Shown one piece after another: positions 58 through 30,271 of a DNA stretch of 33,417 nt (positions are counted from its first letter, which is position 1; every line of letters starts with the position of its first letter). The notes under the pieces were generated by a model. The model ran no database searches. It was not told the origin of the DNA and saw nothing but the letters and a program-made list of their open reading frames with translations. The stretch is taken from assembly GCA_017651265.1 (NCBI GenBank), contig JAGCDO010000037.1, positions 1 to 33,417 of the forward strand. The letters are read 5' to 3'. The position numbers and the translations under genes are program-made. This stretch comes from Prevotella sp. (GTDB taxonomy: Bacteria; Bacteroidota; Bacteroidia; Bacteroidales; Bacteroidaceae).

Positions 58-130
<73 letters not shown>

Positions 131-9038: not shown

Positions 9039-11018
9039 ATGATATCAGTTGAAGGTCTGACCGTGGAATTCAGTGTGGTGCCGCTTTTTTCCGGCGCCAG
9101 TTTCGTCGTGAACGACCGTGACCGCATTGCCTTGGTGGGTAAGAACGGGGCGGGCAAATCGACGTTGCTGAAGATTCTGTGTGGGAAACAGCGTCCCACA
9201 TCGGGCGTTGTGTCTGTGCCGAACGATACCACCATCGGTTATCTGCCGCAGGTGATGATCCTGCAGGATGATACCACGGTGAGGGAAGAGGCGCGGAAGG
9301 CCTTTGCGGGGATGCTACAGCTGAAGGAGCGTCTCGACAGGATGAACAATGAGCTGGCAGTCCGCACCGACTATGAATCTGACGAATATATGTCGTTGGT
9401 GGAGCGCTATACCGAAGAGCATGAGCGTTACCTGATGATGGGAGCAGAGAACTACGAGGCGGAGATTGAGCGTACACTGATGGGTTTGGGTTTTACCCGT
9501 GCTGATCTGGAGCGCCCCACGAATGAGTTCTCTGGCGGCTGGCGCATGCGTGTCGAACTGGCGAAGATCCTGTTGCAGAAGCCTGATGTGCTCTTGCTCG
9601 ACGAGCCCACGAACCATCTTGACATTGAGAGTATCCAGTGGCTGGAGCAGTTCCTGATACAATCGGCCAAGGCTGTTGTACTGGTCAGTCACGACCGTGC
9701 CTTTATCAATAATGTAACGAACCGTACGCTGGAGATCTCCTGCGGGAAGATCATCGACTATCAGGTAAAGTACGACGAATATGTACAGCTCAGGAAGGAA
9801 CGCCGCGAGCAACAGATACGTGCCTACGAGAACCAGCAGAAGGAGATAGCCGAGATGAAGGCTTTCATTGAGCGTTTCCGTTACAAACCCACGAAAGCGG
9901 TGCAGGTGCAGCAGAAGATCAAGCAGCTGGAGAAGATCGTACCTATAGAGATTGATGAGGTTGACCGCAGTGCCATGCGACTGAAGTTCCCGCCTTGCTT
10001 GCGCAGTGGTGATTATCCTGTGATCTGTGAGGAGGTGGGGAAGAGCTACGGGGAACACACCGTGTTCACAGACGTGAGCTTCACCATCAAACGAGGGGAG
10101 AAAGTGGCCTTCGTGGGTAAGAACGGTGAGGGTAAGTCCACGCTGGTGAAATGTATCATGGGCGAGATTCCTTTTACGGGTAATCTGAAGATCGGTCATA
10201 ACATACAGATTGGCTATTTCGCCCAGAACCAGGCACAGCTGTTGGATGAGTCATTGTCGGTCTTTGATACAATCGATCGTGTAGCGAAAGGAGATATCCG
10301 ACTGAGGATCAATGATATACTCGGTGCCTTTATGTTCGGTGGAGAGAATGCCGATAAGAAGGTGAAGGTGTTGAGCGGTGGTGAAAGGAGTCGTCTGGCA
10401 ATGATCCGACTGCTACTCGAACCGGTGAACCTGCTGATTCTCGATGAGCCCACCAACCACCTCGACATGCAGTCGAAGGATGTGCTGAAGGAAGCCATCA
10501 AGGCGTTCGACGGTACGGTGATTGTGGTGAGTCACGACCGTGAGTTCCTCGACGGACTGGTAACGAAGGTTTATGAGTTCGGTGGCGGAATGGTCAAAGA
10601 GCATCTCGGTGGTATCTACGACTTCCTCCGCCGTAAGCAGATAGCATCGTTGGATGAATTATCAGTACGAAGTAATAGTGCTGAATCACAGAGCAATTCT
10701 CCTTCCTCCTTCGTCCTTCCTCCTTCCTCGAATACTTCCACAAGCACAACTCCGGATGTCTCATCCAAACTCGCCTATCTGGAGCGCAAGGAGCAGCAGA
10801 AGAAGGTGAAGCGGGTGGAGAAGAGTATCAAGGAGCAGGAGGAGAAGATCATGAAGCTGGAAGACCGCATCAAAGAGCTGGATGCGATTCTCTGTACGCC
10901 TGAGGGTGCATCGGACATGACCGTCGTTACGGAATACACCAGTATCAAGAAACTCATTGATCAGGAAACCGAGCGCTGGGAACACCTCTGCGAGGAACTC
11001 GATCAGCTTTCCCAATAA
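9039..11018 (+). CDS. ABC-F family ATPase (tandem ABC, ribosome-associated type)
   Basis: This is a soluble protein with two ABC cassettes and no membrane segments, as in the ABC-F group (Uup/YheS-like). Cassette 1 has Walker A GKNGAGKST at residues 34-42, signature FSGGWRMR and Walker B LLLDEPTNHLD. Cassette 2 has Walker A GKNGEGKST at 360-368, signature LSGGERSR and a second LLILDEPTNHLD. A basic coiled linker (YVQLRKERREQQIRAYENQQ onward) lies between them. The C-terminal coiled coil covers about 580-659. Such proteins bind ribosomes or aid translation, and some confer antibiotic resistance. The linker before the coiled coil (about residues 545-575, SNSPSSFVLPPSSNTSTSTTP) is encoded by a dispersed pyrimidine-rich repeat. 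The exact subfamily is unresolved. Confidence 0.93.
   Translation: MISVEGLTVEFSVVPLFSGASFVVNDRDRIALVGKNGAGKSTLLKILCGKQRPTSGVVSVPNDTTIGYLPQVMILQDDTTVREEARKAFAGMLQLKERLDRMNNELAVRTDYESDEYMSLVERYTEEHERYLMMGAENYEAEIERTLMGLGFTRADLERPTNEFSGGWRMRVELAKILLQKPDVLLLDEPTNHLDIESIQWLEQFLIQSAKAVVLVSHDRAFINNVTNRTLEISCGKIIDYQVKYDEYVQLRKERREQQIRAYENQQKEIAEMKAFIERFRYKPTKAVQVQQKIKQLEKIVPIEIDEVDRSAMRLKFPPCLRSGDYPVICEEVGKSYGEHTVFTDVSFTIKRGEKVAFVGKNGEGKSTLVKCIMGEIPFTGNLKIGHNIQIGYFAQNQAQLLDESLSVFDTIDRVAKGDIRLRINDILGAFMFGGENADKKVKVLSGGERSRLAMIRLLLEPVNLLILDEPTNHLDMQSKDVLKEAIKAFDGTVIVVSHDREFLDGLVTKVYEFGGGMVKEHLGGIYDFLRRKQIASLDELSVRSNSAESQSNSPSSFVLPPSSNTSTSTTPDVSSKLAYLERKEQQKKVKRVEKSIKEQEEKIMKLEDRIKELDAILCTPEGASDMTVVTEYTSIKKLIDQETERWEHLCEELDQLSQ
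10699..10730 (+). repeat. Pyrimidine-rich dispersed repeat inside the ABC-F gene
   Basis: Runs of CCTTCCT and CCTTCGT encode the PSSFVLPPSS linker. The first 24 bp (10699-10722) are the exact reverse complement of 20411-20434 inside the U32 gene. A related tract lies in hemW at 30096-30136. The frame is kept. Confidence 0.75.
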
Positions 11019-13126: not shown

Positions 13127-13152
13127 TAAGCTCAAGTAGTAAGTGATAAGTA

Positions 13153-13228
13153 AGAAGTGACAAGTATGATTACCTTCAGGTCCAATCTCTAGGGCCAATA
13201 CACGAAGGTAATCATACTTGTCACTTCT
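13153..13228. repeat. Perfect 25-bp inverted repeat after the M13 gene
   Basis: Arms 13153-13177 and 13204-13228 are exact reverse complements separated by a 26-bp loop. Imperfect pairing continues outward (aagtgata left, tatcactt right), extending the structure to about 13141-13247. It could act as a terminator between the convergent M13 and beta-helix genes. No T-tract directly follows the perfect stem, and the arms resemble dispersed repeat sequence. Confidence 0.8.
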
Positions 13229-13241
13229 CTCTTGTTACATA

Positions 13242-13300
13242 TCACTTAATTACAACCTTTTCCCCATTGACAATCCATGGCAGTCACGGCTATCATGATT
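13242..13300 (-). pseudogene. Relic of a type IX-like C-terminal coding sequence
   Basis: On the minus strand 13242-13274 reads IVNGEKVVIK followed by a stop. This closely matches the C-terminus of the WFDND-repeat protein (GLYIVNGKIVIK) and the usual end of Prevotella T9SS cargo. Upstream, the frame soon decays (TGA within about 20 bp) and no gene is attached. It is probably the leftover 3' end of a duplicated or longer cargo gene. Confidence 0.55.
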
Positions 13301-18272: not shown

Positions 18273-18303
18273 TTGCTTTTGTTCTCTCTTATTCGTACCT
18301 TTG
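18273..18303 (+). promoter_or_regulatory. Upstream copy of the duplicated metA promoter (P1)
   Basis: TTG (18273-18275), 20 bp and TACCTTTG (18296-18303). The segment CTTATTCGTACCTTTG is repeated 83 bp downstream as P2. Confidence 0.6.
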
Positions 18304-18356
18304 ACTCCGTCGAAGGTACTCACGTTCGGAAATGAAAAGAAAAACGAGTTTTCCTT

Positions 18357-18386
18357 TTGCATTTCTCTCACTTATTCGTACCTTTG
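18357..18386 (+). promoter_or_regulatory. Downstream copy of the duplicated metA promoter (P2)
   Basis: TTG (18357-18359), 19 bp and TACCTTTG (18379-18386), 28 bp upstream of the metA ATG. It is the better-placed copy for metA. Confidence 0.72.
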
Positions 18387-18414
18387 CACTCAAATTGCAA
18401 AGGTAGAGAGAATT

Positions 18415-19332
18415 ATGCCATTAAGAATACCAGATCTGTTACCTGCGATAGATATTCTGAAACAGGAGAATATCTTCGTGATGGATGATACCAGGGCGCA
18501 TACCCAGGATATCCGTCCGCTGAAGATTGCCATTCTGAACCTGATGCCGCTGAAGATTACGACAGAGACCGATCTGATCCGTCTGCTGTCGAACACTCCT
18601 CTGCAGCTGGACATCACGTTCATGAAACTGAAGAGTCATACCCCGAAGAACACCCCCATCGAGCACATGATGTTGTTCTACAAGGATTTCGACGAGCTCC
18701 GCAACAAGAAGTTCGACGGGATGATTATTACGGGAGCTCCTGTGGAACAGTTTGATTTCAAGGAGGTGACCTATTGGGACGAGGTGTCAGGAATCTTTGA
18801 ATGGGCAAAGACGCATGTAACCAGTACGTTCTATATCTGCTGGGCAGCACAGGCAGGACTCTTCTACCACTATGGCATACAGAAATATCCTTTGCAGAAG
18901 AAGATGTTCGGCATCTTCGAACAGCATATTCTCTATCCCCGCATGCCGATTTTCCGTGGCTTCGATGATGTGTTCTTCATGCCTCATAGTCGTCATACTG
19001 AGCTTCACCGCGAAGATATCCTTGCCAACGATCAGCTCACACTGCTGGTTGAGGGCAAAGAGAGCGGCGTGAGTATCGTGATGGCCCGGGATGGTCGTGA
19101 GTTCTTCATCACAGGACATCTGGAATATGCGCCTGATACGCTCGACAACGAGTATCGTCGTGATATGGGGAAACGGGATGATGTGGAGATGCCTAAGAAT
19201 TACTACCGCGATGATGATCCGGACAAAGGACCCGTGGTGCGCTGGCGAGCCCATGCGAACCTCCTGTTCTCCAACTGGATCAACTACTACGTTTACCAGA
19301 CCACTCCGTATAATATCGAGGAGATTGGATAA
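18415..19332 (+). CDS. metA: Homoserine O-acetyltransferase (MetA family)
   Basis: MetA acylates homoserine for methionine synthesis in the cytoplasm. From ATG 18415 the protein has 305 aa, and its numbering coincides with E. coli MetA. The nucleophile is Cys142 in FYICWAAQAG, and the His235/Glu237 pair is in FFITGHLEYAPDTL. Residue 111 is Glu (GAPVEQF). In this family Glu at 111 goes with acetyl-CoA use and Gly with succinyl-CoA, so acetyl transfer is inferred. The reading frame continues upstream to a TTG at 18301, but that would cross both promoter copies. The stop overlaps the start of the U32 gene by 8 bp. Confidence 0.95.
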   Translation: MPLRIPDLLPAIDILKQENIFVMDDTRAHTQDIRPLKIAILNLMPLKITTETDLIRLLSNTPLQLDITFMKLKSHTPKNTPIEHMMLFYKDFDELRNKKFDGMIITGAPVEQFDFKEVTYWDEVSGIFEWAKTHVTSTFYICWAAQAGLFYHYGIQKYPLQKKMFGIFEQHILYPRMPIFRGFDDVFFMPHSRHTELHREDILANDQLTLLVEGKESGVSIVMARDGREFFITGHLEYAPDTLDNEYRRDMGKRDDVEMPKNYYRDDDPDKGPVVRWRAHANLLFSNWINYYVYQTTPYNIEEIG

Positions 19333-21382
19333 AATCGAACTACTGGCTCCCGCCAAGAACCTGGAATGTGGAATCGCCGCCATTGATCATGGCGCTGATG
19401 CCGTGTATATCGGAGCACAACGCTTTGGTGCAAGGGTGGCTGCCGGTAATTCGGTAGAAGATATAGCACAGCTCTGTACCTATGCCCATCAGTTTGGCGC
19501 AAAGGTGTATGTCACTGTCAACACCATCATCTACGATGAGGAACTGGAGGAAACACAGCGGTTGCTGCAGGATTTGCAGACTGCAAACGTTGATGCCATC
19601 CTCGTTCAGGATATGGGTCTCTTTCAACTATCCGCTCGGCTCAGCCGCTTCGCTACGCGAAGAACTATCAACTGTCAACTGTCAACTGACTTTCATGCTT
19701 CCACCCAGACCGATAACCGCACCATCGAGAAGGTGCAGTGGTTACGTTCCATTGGCTTCCGCCGGGTGGTACTGGCGCGGGAACTGTCGTTGAAAGAGAT
19801 TGCAGCCATTCATCAAGCCGTTCCAGATGTGGAACTGGAGGTGTTCGTGCATGGTGCCCTGTGTGTGAGTTATTCCGGTCAGTGCTATGCCTCGCAGTAT
19901 TGTTTCGGCAGAAGTGCCAACAGAGGAGCCTGTGCACAGTTCTGTAGGTTACCGTTCGACTTGGAAGATGCTGACGGGAACGTGATAGAACGCGGTCGTC
20001 ATCTGCTCTCCTTGAAGGATATGTGCCGAATCGATCAGCTGGAGGAACTGATGGAGGCAGGCGCTGTGTCGTTCAAGATTGAAGGTAGGTTGAAGGATAT
20101 CGACTATGTGAAGAACGTCACGGCAGCTTATAGTCAGCGACTCAACGAGATTATTGCCCGTCATCCCGACAAATATTGTCGTGCTTCTCTGGGAACATGC
20201 ACGTATTCGTTTACCCCGAACTTACAGAAAACCTTCAATCGTGGCTTTACCGATTATTTCCTGTACGGACGGAAACCCAACATCTTCTCTCCAGATACCC
20301 CCAAAGCATTGGGCGAGTATGTGGGAAAGGTGAAGGAGATCCGAGGCAACTCATTCAATGTGGCCGGAACAGCTTCGTTTGCCAATGGAGATGGGTTGTG
20401 CTTTTTTAGAGAGGAAGGACGAAGGAGGAAGGAGGAAGAAGATGTGTCTCGTAAAAACGTAAGGGATGGAAGATCTTTAGTATTGGAAGGCTTTCGCGTG
20501 AACAGGGCGGAAGGGAACCGATTGTATCCTTATCAGATGCCAGTCGACCTTAAGCCGGGAACGGCATTATATAGGAACTTCGACCAGGAGTTTCAGCGTG
20601 TGATGATGGGTAAGACGGCCGTGCGGAAGATTCCTGTGGAGATGACTTTACGGGAGTTGGAGAACGGCTTCGAACTGCAGATGGGTTCTCAAAGCGTCTG
20701 TTTCCCCATGGAGAAACAGTTGGCTCAGAAGCCGCAGCATGAGAACATCATCCGACAGTTGTCGAAACTGGGTAATACCCCTTACGAGTGTACTTCCGTG
20801 CATTTCGTTCCACAAGACTTCCCATTCTTCATTCCATCAAGTGTGTTGACAGAGATGAGAAGGGAGGTAAGTGAAAAGTTAATAGTGAATAGTGAAGAAT
20901 TCGCTACTGCTATGGCATTTACGCCAAGTGATCATATTCCAAGTGACTTTGTGCCAGCGTACTGTGCGGAAGAAAACTCTCAACTGTCCGCTATCAATTC
21001 TCAACTGTCAACTCTCCGCTCGGCTTTGCCGCTTCGCTACGCGAAGAACTGTCAACTACACAACAAGTATCCTTATTTGCTCAATATTGCCAACCAACAG
21101 GCGCGGGCATTTTACGAGCAGCAAGGACTGAAAGAGATTGCTCCTGCCTTTGAGCTCTCGCCAGTGAAGAATCCACTCATCATGCAGTGCCGGCACTGTC
21201 TGAAATACAGTCTGGGCTACTGCGTGAAAAATGGTGGGGAGATGTCTCCTTGGAAGGAACCGTTGTATCTGAAGCTGGATGATGGCAGACGTTTCCGTCT
21301 GGAGTTCCAATGCAGTGAGTGTCAGATGAATGTGTATGGAGCCCACCCCGACCCTCCCAAAGGGAGGGAGGAAGAAAGATAG
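19325..21382 (+). CDS. Peptidase U32-family protein with repeat-derived insertions
   Basis: The U32 family includes collagenase-like proteases and the RNA-modification proteins RlhA and TrhP. Conserved segments: IELLAPAKNLECGIAAIDHGADAVYIG at the N-terminus, VYVTVNTIIYDEEL, LEVFVHGALCVSYSGQCYAS, SANRGACAQFCRLPF, SLKDMCRIDQLEEL and FKIEGRLKDIDYVKNVT. A C-terminal cysteine set (CRHCLKYSLGYC, CSECQMNVYG) may bind metal. The frame is open but is interrupted by four stretches that match dispersed repeats: about residues 102-122, 360-375, 514-578 and 672-685. Their removal gives about the length expected of Bacteroidales homologs. The start is probably TTG 19325, overlapping the metA stop. The frame runs further upstream inside metA, which is not believable. 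Confidence 0.88.
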   Translation: MDKIELLAPAKNLECGIAAIDHGADAVYIGAQRFGARVAAGNSVEDIAQLCTYAHQFGAKVYVTVNTIIYDEELEETQRLLQDLQTANVDAILVQDMGLFQLSARLSRFATRRTINCQLSTDFHASTQTDNRTIEKVQWLRSIGFRRVVLARELSLKEIAAIHQAVPDVELEVFVHGALCVSYSGQCYASQYCFGRSANRGACAQFCRLPFDLEDADGNVIERGRHLLSLKDMCRIDQLEELMEAGAVSFKIEGRLKDIDYVKNVTAAYSQRLNEIIARHPDKYCRASLGTCTYSFTPNLQKTFNRGFTDYFLYGRKPNIFSPDTPKALGEYVGKVKEIRGNSFNVAGTASFANGDGLCFFREEGRRRKEEEDVSRKNVRDGRSLVLEGFRVNRAEGNRLYPYQMPVDLKPGTALYRNFDQEFQRVMMGKTAVRKIPVEMTLRELENGFELQMGSQSVCFPMEKQLAQKPQHENIIRQLSKLGNTPYECTSVHFVPQDFPFFIPSSVLTEMRREVSEKLIVNSEEFATAMAFTPSDHIPSDFVPAYCAEENSQLSAINSQLSTLRSALPLRYAKNCQLHNKYPYLLNIANQQARAFYEQQGLKEIAPAFELSPVKNPLIMQCRHCLKYSLGYCVKNGGEMSPWKEPLYLKLDDGRRFRLEFQCSECQMNVYGAHPDPPKGREEER
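19631..19690 (+). repeat. Dispersed repeat insertion 1 in the U32 gene
   Basis: CCGCTCGGCT, then GCCGCTTCGCTACGCGAAGAACT, then three TCAACTG-type 7-mers. The segment forms hairpins (cttcgc/gcgaag). Its core matches 21016-21057. In protein it reads SARLSRFATRRTINCQLSTD and sits between VQDMGLFQL and FHASTQTDN, which are adjacent in ordinary family members as I recall them. The frame is preserved. Confidence 0.8.
20405..20440 (+). repeat. Dispersed purine-rich repeat in the U32 gene
   Basis: GAGGAAGGACGAAGG and neighbouring GGAGGAA units encode EEGRRRKEEE. A 24-bp stretch (20411-20434) is identical to the reverse complement of 10699-10722 in the ABC-F gene. The frame is preserved. Confidence 0.75.
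20868..21057 (+). repeat. Composite dispersed repeat insertion in the U32 gene
   Basis: The segment starts with a GTGAATAGTGAAGAA-type tract (encoding KLIVNSEEFA) and continues into TCAACTG 7-mers. It ends with a second copy of the CCGCTCGGCTTTGCCGCTTC hairpin element (from 21016), matching that at 19632-19676. It encodes a low-complexity stretch (SQLSAINSQLSTLRSALPLR) inside an otherwise conserved protein, without breaking the frame. Confidence 0.75.
21343..21373 (+). repeat. Dispersed C/G-rich palindrome at the end of the U32 gene
   Basis: CCCACCCCGACCCTCCCAAA followed by GGGAGGGAGG is a palindrome of the same kind as at 5936-5953 and 16835-16869. It encodes the last residues of the U32 protein (HPDPPKGREEER), beyond the conserved NVYG end. 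Confidence 0.65.
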
Positions 21383-21422
21383 CTGTTGTAATCATAAAGT
21401 TCAATGTTCAAAGTTCAAAGTT

Positions 21423-22499
21423 ATGTCACTTCGTTCCATGACTTTTCTCACGACTCGGCCAAACGTGCAAACACGATGGCACTCACTGCTCCAAAAGTTC
21501 AAAGTAGTGGTCCTGCTTTCTCTTCTGATGTTGTCAGGGTGTTACGACAGGAAGGGTAGGGGCGAAGCCGATGTGCTGCGCGCCGAGGAGGTGTTGGACT
21601 CTGCCGACATGGCGCGCCGACAGGACTCTGTTCTCTTTGCTCGTAAGCATCATTACTCGGAGAACTTCAACTTCGTAGTGAAGGCCGATACTCTTTACCT
21701 AATGCGCTCGCAGCCAGAAGAGGCGGTGAGCATGATGCCCATCGATACCTTCCCTGTGAATCGTCACGACCATTTGGTGGTGGCCGATATCCGTATCATG
21801 CCCAACGACAGTATCGACTCGGTGTGGGTGCAGGTGGCACGCGATCAGATGACGTTCGGCTGGGCACATGAGTCGGAGCTGTTGCCCAAGGTGGTGCCCG
21901 ACGATCCTATCTCGCAGTTTATCTCCACCTTCTCAGATACCCACCTGCTGATCTTCCTGGTAGTCATCAGCTTCATTGCCGTGGCTTATCTGCTGTATAT
22001 CATCCGAAGGAAGAATGCCAAGATTGTGCATTTCAACGATATCGACAGTATCTATCCCACACTGCTGGCGCTCACCGTGGCCATATCAGCCACCTTGTAT
22101 GCCAGTATCCAGCTTTTCGCTCCAGATGTGTGGCAGCAGTTCTATTTCCATCCAACCTTGAATCCCTTCGGCGTTCCCCCGATACTTACGGTATTCCTGG
22201 TCTGTGTATGGCTGATGCTCATCTTAGGACTGGCTTGCGTGGATGTAGTGCGTCAACATCTTCCTTTCAATGATGCCATGCTGTACCTTTGCGGATTAGG
22301 AGGTGTATGCGCCATCAACTACATTGTATTCAGTCTTACCACCTTATATTATATAGGATATATACTCTTGGCGGTGTATATTTATTATGCGCTGAAGCAT
22401 TATTACTACAGTTCCCATTGTCGGTATGTTTGTGGACAATGCGGTACGCCCATTCGTCAGAAAGGGCGTTGTCCTAACTGTGGAGCCATGAATGAATAA
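21423..22499 (+). CDS. Lipid-anchored SH3-like/multi-span membrane protein with C-terminal zinc ribbon
   Basis: The hydrophobic stretch KVVVLLSLLMLSGC ends in a lipobox (LSGC). A periplasmic region of about 130 residues follows and may be an SH3-like domain (NFVVKADTLYLM, RIMPNDSIDSVWVQVARDQMTFGWAHESEL). There are about five membrane helices (LLIFLVVISFIAVAYLLYII, LLALTVAISATLYASIQLF, ILTVFLVCVWLMLILGLACV, LYLCGLGGVCAINYIVFSL and YIGYILLAVYIYYALKHYYY). A cytoplasmic zinc ribbon closes it, with two CxxC pairs (CGQCGTPIRQKGRCPNC). An odd number of spans puts the ribbon in the cytoplasm, consistent with a lipidated periplasmic N-terminus. The start is uncertain: ATG 21423 or 21438, or GTG 21465. 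The leading residues (SKFKV, QKFKV) come from AAAGTTCAAAGT repeats, and the open frame overlaps the U32 gene end. Function unknown. Confidence 0.78.
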   Translation: MSLRSMTFLTTRPNVQTRWHSLLQKFKVVVLLSLLMLSGCYDRKGRGEADVLRAEEVLDSADMARRQDSVLFARKHHYSENFNFVVKADTLYLMRSQPEEAVSMMPIDTFPVNRHDHLVVADIRIMPNDSIDSVWVQVARDQMTFGWAHESELLPKVVPDDPISQFISTFSDTHLLIFLVVISFIAVAYLLYIIRRKNAKIVHFNDIDSIYPTLLALTVAISATLYASIQLFAPDVWQQFYFHPTLNPFGVPPILTVFLVCVWLMLILGLACVDVVRQHLPFNDAMLYLCGLGGVCAINYIVFSLTTLYYIGYILLAVYIYYALKHYYYSSHCRYVCGQCGTPIRQKGRCPNCGAMNE

Positions 22500-23987: not shown

Positions 23988-26366
23988 ATGAAAAAAAGAT
24001 TGTTAATGGTAGCACTGGCCATAGGTTCGGCTTTTCCCGTCATGGCTTATGAAGACGAGAACGTGGCCGATTCAGCCCGTGTTTATGACCTTGATGAAGT
24101 GGTAGTGGTGTCTCAGGCAAAGGAGTTCTTCCGCCTGCGTCAACAGCCTATCAGTTCAACGGTGTTGACGAATAATGAGATCAACCGTTTGGGTGTGCGC
24201 GACCTTCGTGAGTTATCGCAGTACGTACCCTCGTTCGTCATGCCTAACTATGGTTCCCGCTTCACATCCTCCATCTATGTCCGTGGTATTGGATCTCGTG
24301 TGAACAGTCCTTCGATGGGTGTGTATATCGACGATATGCCGCTTGTCAACAAAACGGCTTTCAACACCCACCTCTACGAAACTGAGCGTGTGGACGTGCT
24401 CCGCGGTCCGCAGGGAACGCTCTATGGTATCAATACCGAGGGAGGAATGGTAAGAATGTACACGCGCAACCCGATGAACTATCAGGGAACGGATGTCAAC
24501 CTCTCCCTGGGTAGTCATCTCCATCGTAAGGCTGAGGTGGCCCATTATAATAAGCTAAGCGATCAGTTCGCCTTCTCTGTGGCTGCTTTCTATACCGGCG
24601 AGAACGGATTCTTCCGTAATCAGACTACTGGTGAGCGTGCCGACAATAGTGATGAGGCCGGCGGACGTCTACGCCTGGTATTCCAGCCAACAGACCGTCT
24701 TTCGCTCAACTATATAGCCGACTATCAGTTCGTGAAGCAGAAGGCATATCCTTATGGGGTGCTCAACGAGGATAAGACAGAGATTGTGGGATTGCCTAAT
24801 CAGGACTCGCAGAGCAACTACAAGCGAAACCTCTTCAATACGGGTCTTGGTATCAAGTATGCCGCTAACGGCTTTGACTTCAATTCCACCACGAGTTATC
24901 AGTTCCTTCGTGATAACCTGCTGATGGATAACGACTATTCAGCCATTGATTTCATCGTGGTTGACCAGTTCCAGCTGTCGAACGCTCTGACACAAGAGTT
25001 CTCTTTCAAGAGCAACAACACCAGTCGCTGGCATTGGACATCAGGTGCCTTCGGCAGTTATTCGTGGCTGAAGACCGTTGCTCCCAATACCTTCGGTACT
25101 GCTTTCTCACGTATGATGGGTGGTATGGTGACCAATCAGATCTACAATGCGATGTTCAACTCTATGGCTGCCCGAATGGGAGAGGAGGGAGCCAGGGCTG
25201 CTATTGAGCGTGCCGGTGGTATCAACGTGAACATGGGACTTTTCGTTCCCTGCACATTCCGCACGCCGCAGTACAACCTGGGTATCTATCATGAGTCGGA
25301 TATTGACATCACGGATCACCTCACGGCCACACTCGGTCTGCGTTACGACTTTACCCATGCTGAGATTGACTATGACACACGTGGTGATGCCAATCTCGAC
25401 TTCAACATCATGGGCGTGGCTGCCAAGGCAAAACTGCTGAGTATCTTCCAGCATGAGGAAAAGGCAGATTTCAGTCAGCTGCTTCCCAAGTTCGGTCTTA
25501 CGTATAAGTTCAACGGTGGTAGTAACGTCTATGCTACAGTGGCCAAGGGTTATCGTGCCGGTGGCTTCAACGTGCAGCTTTTCGGCGACTATATCAATAC
25601 CGATGTGCAGAGGAATCTTCAGACCGTTATGGGAGAGGCACAGCAGTCACGTCAGGATGTTTACAAGGAAATCGAACACACCGATGCTGAGTATGAGGGA
25701 TTGCTCGATGCGATTAAGTTCAAGCCCGAGGAGAGCTGGAACTATGAGTTTGGTACTCACCTGAATCTCTTGGGTGATGCACTTCATGCCGACCTCTCTT
25801 TCTTCTATATGCAGATTCGCAACCAACAGCTCTCTGTCTTCAATCAGGAGTTTGGCTTTGGTCGCCGTATGATCAATGCTGGAAAGAGCTACAGTTGTGG
25901 TATGGAAATCTCACTCCGCGGTAGTCTGGTGAATAATCACCTTACCTGGGCGGCTAACTATGGCTACACCAATGCCAAGTTCAAGGAATACGTTGACCAG
26001 GGAACCGACTATAAGGACAACAATGTTCCCTTTATTCCTGCTCACACCTTCTCGGCAATGGCCGATTATCGCTTTGATTTCAGCGACTCTCTGTTGAAGG
26101 ATATTACGATTGGTGCCAACGTGAACGGTCAGGGTAAGATATGGTGGGATGATGCAAACACCTTCTCACAGAAACTGTATGCCGTTTTAGGAGCCCATGC
26201 CGCTGCTAATTTCGGATGTGTGAATGTTGACCTTTGGGCCCGTAACATCACAGATGCAAAATATGCCACCTTTGCTTTCCGTAGTGCAGCCACTGGTCAG
26301 GCTGTCTATTCAGCCCAGCGTGGCATGCCCTTCCAAATGGGAGTAGATTTAAGGATACACTTTTAA
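23988..26366 (+). CDS. TonB-dependent outer-membrane receptor
   Basis: This is a 792-aa outer-membrane beta-barrel importer. The signal peptide MKKRLLMVALAIGSAFPVMA precedes a TonB-box-like LDEVVVV (about residue 35). A plug domain follows (PISSTVLTNNEINRLGVRDLRELSQYVPSF, SIYVRGIGSRVNSPSMGVYIDDMPL, VDVLRGPQGTLYG). The barrel ends in FQMGVDLRIHF with the expected terminal Phe. There is no SusC-type N-terminal carboxypeptidase-like domain and no SusD neighbour, so it resembles siderophore or cofactor receptors more than a glycan importer. Operon placement with protoporphyrinogen oxidase suggests porphyrin, haem or iron ligands; this is inference. Confidence 0.9.
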   Translation: MKKRLLMVALAIGSAFPVMAYEDENVADSARVYDLDEVVVVSQAKEFFRLRQQPISSTVLTNNEINRLGVRDLRELSQYVPSFVMPNYGSRFTSSIYVRGIGSRVNSPSMGVYIDDMPLVNKTAFNTHLYETERVDVLRGPQGTLYGINTEGGMVRMYTRNPMNYQGTDVNLSLGSHLHRKAEVAHYNKLSDQFAFSVAAFYTGENGFFRNQTTGERADNSDEAGGRLRLVFQPTDRLSLNYIADYQFVKQKAYPYGVLNEDKTEIVGLPNQDSQSNYKRNLFNTGLGIKYAANGFDFNSTTSYQFLRDNLLMDNDYSAIDFIVVDQFQLSNALTQEFSFKSNNTSRWHWTSGAFGSYSWLKTVAPNTFGTAFSRMMGGMVTNQIYNAMFNSMAARMGEEGARAAIERAGGINVNMGLFVPCTFRTPQYNLGIYHESDIDITDHLTATLGLRYDFTHAEIDYDTRGDANLDFNIMGVAAKAKLLSIFQHEEKADFSQLLPKFGLTYKFNGGSNVYATVAKGYRAGGFNVQLFGDYINTDVQRNLQTVMGEAQQSRQDVYKEIEHTDAEYEGLLDAIKFKPEESWNYEFGTHLNLLGDALHADLSFFYMQIRNQQLSVFNQEFGFGRRMINAGKSYSCGMEISLRGSLVNNHLTWAANYGYTNAKFKEYVDQGTDYKDNNVPFIPAHTFSAMADYRFDFSDSLLKDITIGANVNGQGKIWWDDANTFSQKLYAVLGAHAAANFGCVNVDLWARNITDAKYATFAFRSAATGQAVYSAQRGMPFQMGVDLRIHF

Positions 26367-26368
26367 AA

Positions 26369-26496
26369 GTTGATAGTTGAAAGTTGACAGTTGATAGTTC
26401 CCTACCGTAAAGGTGGTTGGCGCAAAGCCTAACTCTCAACTGTCAACTGTCAACTTTCAACTGTCAATTGTCAACTGTCAATTGTCAACTGTCAAC
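26369..26496. repeat. TCAACTG 7-bp tandem array with inverted left arm
   Basis: Between the convergent TonB receptor and lactate permease genes, 26436-26496 holds about 8.7 copies of a 7-bp unit (TCAACTG with TCAATTG and TCAACTT variants). A left arm at 26369-26399 carries the inverse units (GTTGATA, GTTGACA), so the two arms can pair around about 35 bp. The array runs straight into the permease stop codon. The same 7-mers occur inside the U32 gene. A role in transcription termination is possible. Confidence 0.8.
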
Positions 26497-28100
26497 TAAA
26501 ACACGTGCAGTCCTAAGAATACCATCAGACCGTTCATTAGGATCCAGAAGATGGCGAACGGCATGGTCTTGCGCATGATATCTCCGTCCTGACCTTCCAT
26601 ATCGCAGGCGGCGGTAGCAATGGCAATGCTCTGCGGTGAGAGTAGCTTACCACCTTCAGAACCAGCACAGTTGGCGGCGGCGAGCCAGTTGGTCTCGTTA
26701 CCACTCACACCGAAGAAGGTGCTCTGGTTCACCAAACCGAGGTCGCTCGCAGCAGTAGCCTGCAGCTTACCGAAGAGGATATTGGCATTCGTGGCACTAC
26801 CTGTTACAAACGTTCCGATAGAACCGATGAGCGGAGCGAAGAACGGGAAGAAGGTGCCGGTAAGGGCAACCAGGCCCTTGGCAATATCGTTCGTCATACC
26901 CGTATTGTTCATCAGCATGGCCATGGCCACCAAGCAGCAGATGGTGACGGCGGTCTTCTGCAGGTTCAGGGTTGTCTTAGCCAGCAGCTTCATCAGTCTG
27001 CCGAAGCTCATGCCCTGAATCAAACCACCGATCATGGCGCCTAAGAAGATCATCAGACCCGCATTCGACAGCCAGCCGAACTTAAAGGCGTTACCAGTTA
27101 CTGGTAAGCTGAACTGGGTAACCAGCGTACTGTTCAGTGCGGAGTTGATGGCAGGAACGATCTTACTTGAGATAAGGATGAAGAAGATGATGAGTCCGTA
27201 AACACTCCAAGCCTTCAGGGTCTTTGTCAAACCGAACTTCTTCTTCTCCACGATCACCTCGTCGGCAGGATTCTCATCACGGATGAACAGCTTGTTATAT
27301 ATCAGCATAGCGATGATGGCTGCCACGGAACCTAAGATAGCAGGTGTCTCCGGACCGATGAAGTGGGCGCAGCAGAACTGAACGATGATGGAGAATGTTC
27401 CCACGAACAACGCCAGCGAGATATTCTTCAAAATCTTCTTTCGGTCGGTCATCATCAGAATCAGAAACGGGGTGATGTAGAACATCAGCGCAAGCTGGAT
27501 GATGATGAAGGTGGCAACCTCGCAGAGCATCTCGGGAGAGGCCACTCCTTCTGCAGCAACCTGGTTAGCCAGTGTAGTGGCAGGAAGTCCTACGGCGCCA
27601 AAGCCCACGGCCACGGTGTTGGCAATCAAACAGATCACAGCTGAGAACATCGGTTTGAAACCTAATCCGATAAGGATAGCTGCAGGAATAGCCACGGCCG
27701 TACCGAAGCCGGCCATACCTTCGAGCACACCACCTAAACCCCAGGTAAGGAGCAGTACCAGCAGACCCTTGTCGGAGGTCATCTGGATGAACTGCGTCTT
27801 GATGGTCTCAATCTCCTTGGTCTCGCAAAGGATGTTATAACTGAAAATGGCGCAGATAATAATCAGGATAATCGGGAAACAGGCCTTCAGTAATCCTTCA
27901 ACGATCGACCACCACGAGAGACCGAAGATGGATGCTTCGGCAAATTTCTCAGGAATGATGCCCATGGCGGGAGCAGCAAACAAAGCCAGAAGGATAGTAA
28001 CGATAAGTGTCACGATGGCACTCTTGTAGCCCGACACCTTGAAACCCATCATTAACACGATGAGTAGTACAATTGGGATAACTGATACTAATGCTGACAT
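26496..28100 (-). CDS. lldP: L-lactate permease family transporter (LctP/LldP)
   Basis: This is a 534-aa polytopic inner-membrane protein, with about 12-14 hydrophobic helices, that probably takes up lactate or a related 2-hydroxy acid with protons. Family segments seen: ACFPIILIIICAIFSYNI, the glycine-rich GGVLEGMAGFGTAVAIPAAILIGLGF typical of LctP, NTVAVGFGAVGLPATTL, and the C-terminal GTFVTGSATNANILFGKLQ and AANCAGSEGGKLLSPQSIAIATAA. Length is normal for the family. The gene has its own -7 box upstream and is isolated, with no lactate dehydrogenase in the window. Substrate specificity (lactate or glycolate) cannot be set from sequence. Confidence 0.9.
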   Translation of the reverse strand: MSALVSVIPIVLLIVLMMGFKVSGYKSAIVTLIVTILLALFAAPAMGIIPEKFAEASIFGLSWWSIVEGLLKACFPIILIIICAIFSYNILCETKEIETIKTQFIQMTSDKGLLVLLLTWGLGGVLEGMAGFGTAVAIPAAILIGLGFKPMFSAVICLIANTVAVGFGAVGLPATTLANQVAAEGVASPEMLCEVATFIIIQLALMFYITPFLILMMTDRKKILKNISLALFVGTFSIIVQFCCAHFIGPETPAILGSVAAIIAMLIYNKLFIRDENPADEVIVEKKKFGLTKTLKAWSVYGLIIFFILISSKIVPAINSALNSTLVTQFSLPVTGNAFKFGWLSNAGLMIFLGAMIGGLIQGMSFGRLMKLLAKTTLNLQKTAVTICCLVAMAMLMNNTGMTNDIAKGLVALTGTFFPFFAPLIGSIGTFVTGSATNANILFGKLQATAASDLGLVNQSTFFGVSGNETNWLAAANCAGSEGGKLLSPQSIAIATAACDMEGQDGDIMRKTMPFAIFWILMNGLMVFLGLHVF

Positions 28101-29100: not shown

Positions 29101-30271
29101 TTAGCAATTCATCAGTTCCGTCATGATCATATCGCTGACGAACAGTCCGCCCCTGGTAAGGTGAAGACGGTTGTCAGTGAGCTCGAGTAGCCCGTCGTTG
29201 ATGAAGCGACGGGCATTTTTGATGGCATACGTCCTGTGCTTCTCTGACAATATCGACAAATCAAGACCTTCCCGGGTGCGCAAGGCAACGGTCACCAAAT
29301 CATTATAATGCGTGTCGGCATCAATGGTCTCTTCCTCGAAGACACGCTTCCCTTGTTTCATTCCCTCGATATACTGACTGATATCCGCTACGTTCCAGCT
29401 TCGCTTTCCCAACCCTTGGGGATGAAGTGCGGGCGGACTGTAGCTATGGGCTGCGGCACCAATGCCGATATACGGCGTGTCGTTCCAGTAACTGCTGTTA
29501 TGACGGGAACGGAAGCCGTTCTTGGCGAAGTTCGAGATCTCGTAGTGTTCGTATCCCGCAGCAGTGAGTTGGTCGATGAGTAGCTCATACATCTCCCGTT
29601 CCAGCTCCTCTTTACTGTTCTCGTACTCCCGTACACCCGCATCTCCGTATCTCTGATACAACTCGGTTCCCTCCTCAATCATCAGGGAATAAGCCGACAG
29701 GTGTTCCACATCCAGTGCGAGGGCATCGTGGATGTCCTGCTCCCAATCCTGCAATGTCTCCCCGGGGAAACCGAACATCAGGTCGATACTGATATTCTGT
29801 ATGCCGTTCTTACGTAGCAGGTCAACCGCCTCCCTTACCTGACTGCTGGTATGCCTACGGTGCAGAAAACGTAGTCGCTCATCCGAGAAGGTCTGGGCAC
29901 CCATGCTTACCCGGTTAATGGGCAGTTCACCAATCACTTGCGCATAGTCGGGCGTGATGTCATCAGGGTTGCACTCCATGGTGATTTCCGCATCGGCCGC
30001 CACCTCATATACCTTATATATATTATGAAACAGACGATGGAGCAGGGCTGGGGGAAGCTGAGAGGGCGTACCGCCGCCGAGGTAGATCGTTGTTAGGGAG
30101 GAAGGAGGAAGGAAAAGGGAGAGAGGAGGAAGGTGGGGTGTTCCTCATTTCCATTTCCTTGCAGAGGGCATTCACATAGTCGTCCATCAGTCCATGTTGG
30201 GTGGTGGAGTAAAAAGCACAGTAGATGCACCTGCTTTTGCAAAAAGGAAGATGGATATAGAGACCTGCCAT
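29101..30271 (-). pseudogene. hemW: Radical SAM haem chaperone HemW, frameshifted in a repeat tract
   Basis: HemW is a radical-SAM protein of the HemN-like family, implicated in haem trafficking. The N-terminal 80 or so residues (MAGLYIHLPFCKSRCIYCAF, with the CxxxCxxC cluster motif) read in one frame from 30271. The conserved TIYLGGGTPSQL and everything after it, to MTELMNC, read in the +1 frame. The N-terminal frame runs on to a stop at 30023. The downstream frame is blocked upstream by TGA at 30145-30147, so the shift lies between 30147 and about 30083, which is occupied by a purine-rich repeat (30096-30136). Loss of one base or gain of two would restore one frame of about 390 codons. Both halves are otherwise conserved. 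It may be a recent mutation, a length-variable switch or an assembly error. Confidence 0.85.
30096..30136. repeat. Purine-rich dispersed repeat in hemW
   Basis: GGAGGAAGGAGGAAGG and GAGAGGAGGAAGG form a low-complexity tract related to those in the ABC-F and U32 genes. It interrupts hemW between EMEMR and TIYLGGG and coincides with the reading-frame break. Confidence 0.75.

Follow-up and report, generated by a model that had tools for sequence, protein, structure and literature searches.

The stretch of DNA analysed here (the window) comprises 33,417 nucleotides of Prevotella sp. (contig JAGCDO010000037.1 of assembly GCA_017651265.1) and carries a gene of the U32 family in which short repeats of several kinds lie in frame at four sites. 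These repeats are a small double hairpin (the core), tandem arrays of 7-base units (heptads) and a G/C palindrome, and they recur elsewhere in the genome and the genus, both between genes and in frame within other conserved protein genes, in which the same loops are filled with different repeats in related species. We consider it likely, from comparison of sequences, that the genic copies are near-neutral translated repeat DNA similar to Rickettsia palindromic elements (RPEs) and to intragenic repetitive extragenic palindromic (REP) sequences, and that they form a separate, heptad-based Prevotella family.

The occurrence of such repeats in Prevotella genes appears to be new, although their kind is already known from RPEs, REPs and heptanucleotide arrays. 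The conversion of repeat DNA into protein, described for the intracellular Rickettsia and in scattered REP cases, is thereby extended to a common gut genus of many species. One enzyme loop holding unrelated repeats in sister species lends itself, as a natural series, to studying the manner, the rate and the cost of turning non-coding DNA into protein sequence, and the old puzzle of the frequent unit length of seven in bacterial tandem repeats becomes testable.

A U32-family gene with four repeat sites

The gene (19325..21382, plus strand) encodes 685 residues from an inferred TTG start, at which it shares 8 bases with a metA-like open reading frame (ORF; 18301-19332). Pfam assigns the protein to PF01136 (Peptidase_U32, 242 bits) and PF12392 (DUF3656, 75 bits), both above cut-off, and it thereby has the make-up of the long U32 proteins (U32 core domain plus DUF3656), to which RlhA also conforms. 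The best NCBIfam model is the equivalog tRNA hydroxylase TrhP, for which the score (189 bits) is so far under the curated cut-off (534) that we name the protein by its family only; it is probably an RNA-modifying enzyme, not a peptidase. No solved structure of a relative was found with phmmer or with a 10-sequence profile, and an AlphaFold2 model was not used (mean pLDDT 32, computed from two sequences, the window protein and its 92% identical counterpart at the same locus of Prevotella sp. isolate Tb.RUG.501, JAEEWT010000008.1, here L062). The genome of the window (G000; the window is its contig C34) is a draft of 3.16 Mb in 69 contigs. A sister genome, G094, encodes a U32 protein 93% identical to that of G000, and the gene is under purifying selection, the ratio of the proportions of nonsynonymous and synonymous differences (pN/pS) between the two being 0.077 with the repeat sites excluded.

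In conceptual translation, all four sites are read on the plus strand. Site 1 (19621..19692) consists of a core (19632-19666) followed by TCAACTG heptads and is translated as LSARLSRFATRRTINCQLST. Site 2 (20408..20443) is an array of GAGGAAG heptads, translated as REEGRRRKEEED. The first part of site 3 (20868..20898) holds AGTTAAT/AGTGAAT heptads, translated as VSEKLIVNSEE, and its second part (20975..21057) holds AACTCTC/AACTGTC heptads, a second core (21016-21050) and further heptads, translated as NSQLSAINSQLSTLRSALPLRYAKNCQL. The end site (21344..21374) is a CCCTCCC-AAA-GGGAGGG palindrome, translated as HPDPPKGREEE, the hairpin of which has a predicted energy of -15.9 kcal/mol (z -2.65).

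A first-pass annotation made from the letters alone had recognised four dispersed repeats in frame within this gene, and the frame is indeed open through two cores, the heptad arrays and the palindrome. The relationships that it had drawn between the repeats also stood. The hairpin element shared by sites 1 and 3 is 91% identical over 53 nt (19621-19673 versus 21005-21057), with the core common to both; the TCAACTG heptads at 19658-19692 and 20975-21016 match an intergenic array at 26427-26499; and 20411-20434 agrees in 24 of 24 nt with 10699-10722 read in reverse complement, both lying in heptad arrays (GAGGAAG/CTTCCTC). The partner of site 2 is an array of CCTTCCT heptads (10696..10731, plus strand) in frame within an ABC-F ATPase gene (9039-11018). 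The gene end belongs, as had been proposed, to a G/C palindrome family, which occupies 9 places in the G000 genome at no more than one mismatch and also occurs within a P-type ATPase gene (G000:C27:74499).

Directly past the U32 stop codon lies an array of AAAGTTC heptads (21394..21424, plus strand), and beyond it (~21425-21500) a further dispersed repeat family, which reads TTTGGCCGAGTCGTGA on the reverse strand. Members of this family are also found at site 2 of the G094 U32 gene and adjoining a core in locus L015.

Variable repeats at the same positions in U32 relatives

The gene was compared among 30 U32 genes, which are the best 30 matches from 150 genomes and not a random sample (one, L042, is incomplete). 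Site 1 measures 26 residues in G000, 26 in G094 and 12-24 elsewhere; site 2 measures 29, 44 and 9-34, site 3 measures 71, 44 and 28-92, and the end site 16, 16 and 4-16, respectively. The G000 protein exceeds the median length of 27 relatives by 54 residues and the length of the shortest by 94, so that the earlier figure of roughly 110 added residues was too high. The clean gaps that had been expected in homologs were looked for at the four sites and not found: relatives carry other residues there, in several species heptads of their own.

Between the two sister genomes, site 1 and the end site are nearly unchanged (the site 1 element of G094 differs by one base). At site 2, the array of G094 is followed by a stretch resembling the dispersed repeat of ~21425-21500 and of L015, a further repeat family at this site. 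At site 3, the second part contains the core with TCAACTG heptads in G000 and TCATCTT-type heptads without a core in G094.

The predominance of the unit length of seven is not confined to these two genomes. The 30 U32 genes contain 27 tracts of period 7, located in nine genes, compared with 0-3 tracts at each remaining period between 4 and 13 (period 14, the double, gives 14); codon shuffles of the same genes yield about none. At least half the residues of 18 of the 27 tracts fall in gapped alignment columns, which hold 7% of all residues, and five tracts, being the first arms of site 3, have no residues in such columns. In loci L021, L022, L026, L029 and L047, site 3 carries inverted array pairs (e.g. 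CGAGGTA/TACCTCG), with three unit types among the five. In L047 (the U32 gene of G018), an ATAATGG array at gene positions 1468-1504 has ACAATGG where an in-frame TAA would fall; it looks as though stops had been selected out.

The double-hairpin core and its distribution

The core spans 30 nt and is composed of two small hairpins, CGGC-NNN-GCCG and CTTCGC-NNN-GCGAAG, usually with flanking heptads such as TCAACTG (the copy in L010 stands alone). The search of the genome that had been suggested for these elements located it at 18 places in G000 with up to three mismatches, versus none for the backward control; like an RPE, it is thus a palindromic repeat present many times per genome, here with two hairpins. 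Neighbouring cores up to 110 bases apart are spaced by 37 + 7k bases in 9 of 13 pairs. The folding energy of the core alone is ordinary (z -1.0 and -1.2), and the support for its structure comes from pairing changes. In 168 fetched copies, the two free stem positions are occupied by C-G (136), T-A (19), G-C (10), G-A (2) and T-G (1), the excess of C-G being due in part to the search patterns, which fixed that pair; the second stem thus changes in sequence with pairing retained, 29 copies having another Watson-Crick pair and 3 being unpaired.

A search pattern free at one stem position per side detected the core in 62 of the 150 genomes examined from the genus, and a pattern with a fixed stem in 17 of 150; outside the genus, it occurred in 1 of 294 genomes from other genera of the order (own genome set aside). 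The 80 listed of 106 matching stretches are all titled Prevotella, Prevotellaceae, Bacteroidaceae or Bacteroidales, and none belongs to Rickettsiales. Draft genomes such as this one, with its 69 contigs, invite the suspicion of chance similarity or assembly artefact; the 18 copies against an empty control, the distribution over 62 genomes and the presence of both site 1 and the end site in the corresponding positions of the G094 gene leave that explanation with hardly any credibility.

A further possibility is that a tyrosine transposase (Y1, RAYT or IS200-like) mobilises the core as an element of the REP type, as has been proposed for GTAG REPs. The core is a small palindrome, present in both orientations and in tandem copies, intragenic REPs are already described in the available text of PMC3733652, and Y1 genes are more common in core-bearing genomes (44/62 versus 43/88, Fisher p 0.008). 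However, PF01797 has no match in the genomes that rank first, second and fourth by core copies (G139 with 65, G000 with 28 and G094 with 21), in which, as they are incomplete (G139 ~70%), the Y1 enzyme may be missed. Moreover, the core ends in CGCTC... and ...GAAGAACT, without the GTAG or CGTC tag of such REPs: CTAC/GTAG occurs in the loop of the core variant of G000, and a different variant carries CGTC in its loop region, neither at an end. As the heptads would also be left unexplained, we regard transposition by a Y1 enzyme as unlikely.

Core copies within protein-coding genes

From the fetched loci, 155 distinct core copies were collected at up to four mismatches, orthologous copies of different species being counted separately. 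Of these, 47 lie deep in genes (at least 30 codons inside ORFs of at least 250 codons), distributed over 39 ORFs, and 52 have no ORF of 100 codons running through them. The deep copies use all six reading frames (forward 12, 7 and 6; reverse 8, 2 and 12). All 20 ORFs chosen from the 39 for scanning contain Pfam families (E <= 1e-5). These are P-type ATPase, PrmC (two copies), GT2, CbiJ-CbiD (two), UvrA (two), GH115 (two), ABC transporter, amidohydrolases, CbiA, TonB receptor, GH32 (two), Polysacc_synt_2, MenC, GH3, TrmO, PurL-type FGAR amidotransferase, fucose pyrophosphorylase/kinase, a two-component propeller protein and GH95, some of the gene names being our reading of the Pfam matches. The core is found, as RPEs are, as an in-frame insert in unrelated protein genes and is absent in relatives. 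The UvrA gene of L067 has, besides its two cores, a stretch (PQPPNLGG) that resembles a further translated palindrome.

The idea that the core is open in all six frames by design was rejected: 16% of composition shuffles are equally open, and the G000 core variant has a stop in one of the six frames.

Different repeats in the loops of other enzymes

Three further genes were compared at loci in which the search motif was found, the others being dropped (hemW, 14 of 16 readable; P-type ATPase, 13 of 13; PrmC, 10 of 13). One loop of the P-type ATPase contains a core with TCAACTG heptads in G000 and TCATCTC heptads in G094, and is short and repeat-free in L265, L267, L269 and L271. The same gene also carries, in frame and common to G000 and G094, the G/C palindrome and an AATTCTC/AATTTTC array. 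In L273 (the P-type ATPase of G085), the loop that contains PTPSPSQREG in G000 has three TSPNPSKGGG-like units, a different repeat at that position. In L248 (the PrmC of G047, 53% identity), TCAACTC heptads lie in frame (ITLNPQLSTLNSS) close to the site of the G000 core. At period 7 there are eight tracts in the ATPase set and three in the PrmC set, compared with 0-5 and 0-1, respectively, at each remaining period of the range 4-13, both excesses being weaker ones.

The aligned codons of G000 and G094 are ~96% identical in U32 (outside the sites) and ~90% in the ATPase, and pN/pS between the sisters, inserts included, is 0.14 for the ATPase and 0.18 for PrmC. The low values of these two proteins and of U32 indicate that the proteins are kept with their inserts.

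The hemW gene of the window (29101-30271, minus strand) differs in that its frame is interrupted in this assembly. The start, bearing CxxxCxxC, lies in an 83-residue frame and the remainder in another, with the break at a degenerate heptad tract (30095..30136, minus strand), whereas hemW of G094 has other heptads (CACTCCA) and an open frame of 402 residues. Not every repeat of the window keeps the frame, therefore. In different genomes, the hemW loop is filled with CCTTCCT-type, CACTCCA or AGAGAGG-type heptads, and further heptads are present in G022, G067 and G033 (L298, L300 and L302). Of the 14 genes, 6 contain period-7 tracts, six in all, of which two lie outside the loop; no tract was obtained at any remaining period between 4 and 13, and seven were obtained at period 14.

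An interruption at a heptad tract in G000 that is open in G094 could suggest that the heptads are contingency loci: as 7 is not a multiple of 3, gain or loss of a unit would shift the frame and switch HemW-like proteins off and on. This is the single clear case and comes from a draft assembly, and housekeeping genes of the purL, uvrA and prmC type are, from general knowledge, unlikely to gain by being switched; we consider this explanation very improbable.

The first-pass proposal that several repeat families enter genes and survive as surface loops can thus be retained in part. Several families do occur in frame, in U32 and in many other genes; they are seen not as clean insertions but as fillings of variable loops.

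Heptad arrays and hairpins of the window

Across the 33-kb window there are seven period-7 tracts, none at periods 4-6 and 8-13, and four at period 14, the double of seven. Tandem 7-base units are thus dispersed in this genome, as in bacterial heptanucleotide repeats. The TCAACTG array is stop-free in all three frames on one strand only. A control with the heptads read backwards (79 + 89 versus 135 + 140 overlapping matches) is unclean because the backward heptad nearly equals the same heptad.

Two intergenic hairpins lie between convergent ORF ends. The first (26363..26500; -59.6 kcal/mol, z -10.3) consists of two inverted TCAACTG-type arms and is built like the inverted array pairs of U32 site 3. 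The second (13134..13247; -59.6 kcal/mol, z -12.0) has arms that appear heptad-like by eye (AAGTNNN) and failed the period-7 test. Their position at convergent ORF ends, together with the pairing retained in the second stem of the core (29 alternative pairs against 3 unpaired), would agree with inserts that are selected, either as RNA hairpins tuning translation or mRNA stability or as partner-binding peptides. Yet the same loops of relatives hold unrelated inserts or none, the six reading frames yield six unrelated peptides and openness in all frames is nothing special, as the shuffles show; selection for such functions appears improbable to us, if somewhat less so than frame switching.

Proposed origin and persistence of the inserts

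Under the reading that we prefer, near-neutral translated repeat DNA, these genomes carry a load of small repeats, mainly non-coding, comprising double-hairpin cores, 7-base arrays (some as inverted pairs) and G/C palindromes. Slippage, recombination or template switching would create new copies, in genes as well as between them, and a copy in a gene would survive where a loop tolerates a change in length, the frame is kept and no stop is added. A surviving genic copy would then be translated as a nearly neutral insert. The loops may later be rewritten as heptads change in sequence and number and as cores are gained or lost, which would explain why orthologous loops contain different repeats in each species. 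That the inserts are close to neutral, that they survive selectively where loops are tolerant and that new copies arise by slippage or template-switched copying are inferences from these patterns.

Several points weigh against this proposal. No copying step was observed, and target duplications are undefinable because most cores are flanked by heptads. In a sample of 16 TCAACTG-type arrays of G000, one lay deep within a long ORF and 15 did not, which makes genic arrays a minority. The frame break in hemW shows that repeat turnover is not invariably harmless.

It is also conceivable, though we think it rather unlikely, that a dedicated process writes 7-base units. Length is fixed and sequence wholly rewritten at orthologous sites between sisters (U32 site 3, ATPase, hemW), and units are matched on inverted arms (U32 site 3 of the five loci named above); such a process would yield both the intergenic hairpin arrays and the tolerated translated inserts in enzymes.

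Relation to described repeats

The comparison with RPEs made in the first-pass annotation is apt. In its available text, PMC3733652 describes intragenic REPs and RPEs, including RPE-4 and RPE-6, and a uvrA gene with two inserts. As there described, RPEs too are short palindromic repeats in frame in many unrelated genes, with insert-free relatives. In contrast to RPEs, the Prevotella repeats belong to another phylum, combine a double hairpin with heptad arrays and place different repeats in orthologous loops. To our knowledge, the sequence of the core differs from that of RPEs.

The GTAG/CGTC REPs resemble the core in being palindromes of 20-40 bp, mostly intergenic and sometimes genic (uvrA, two inserts), with compensatory stem changes, as far as the available text of PMC3733652 describes them; unlike them, the core has no GTAG or CGTC end tag and has attached heptads. 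In the main text of PMC3733652, Bacteroidetes are mentioned once, in connection with CGTC repeats, and Prevotella is not mentioned.

Heptanucleotide repeats are described, in the text available of each paper, as TAACTGA in Beggiatoaceae, Cyanobacteria and five Bacteroidetes (PMC4679880) and as the GGGAATC type in Xanthomonas and Nostoc (PMC4692102). According to these accounts they are, like the arrays of Prevotella, genome-scattered, mostly intergenic and in few cases genic, and TAACTGA is, like TCAACTG, stop-free in one orientation only. Each of the two papers, to the extent of that text, treats one unit sequence or motif, whereas in Prevotella the same protein loops are filled anew, in different species, by many units of length seven. 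A search of the open-access literature by title and start of abstract found, among the matches listed, no report of such elements in genes of Prevotella, most subscription journals lying outside that scope.

Remaining feature of the window

A scan of the window against Rfam returned a tRNA gene (58-130, minus strand; RF00005) as its sole match.

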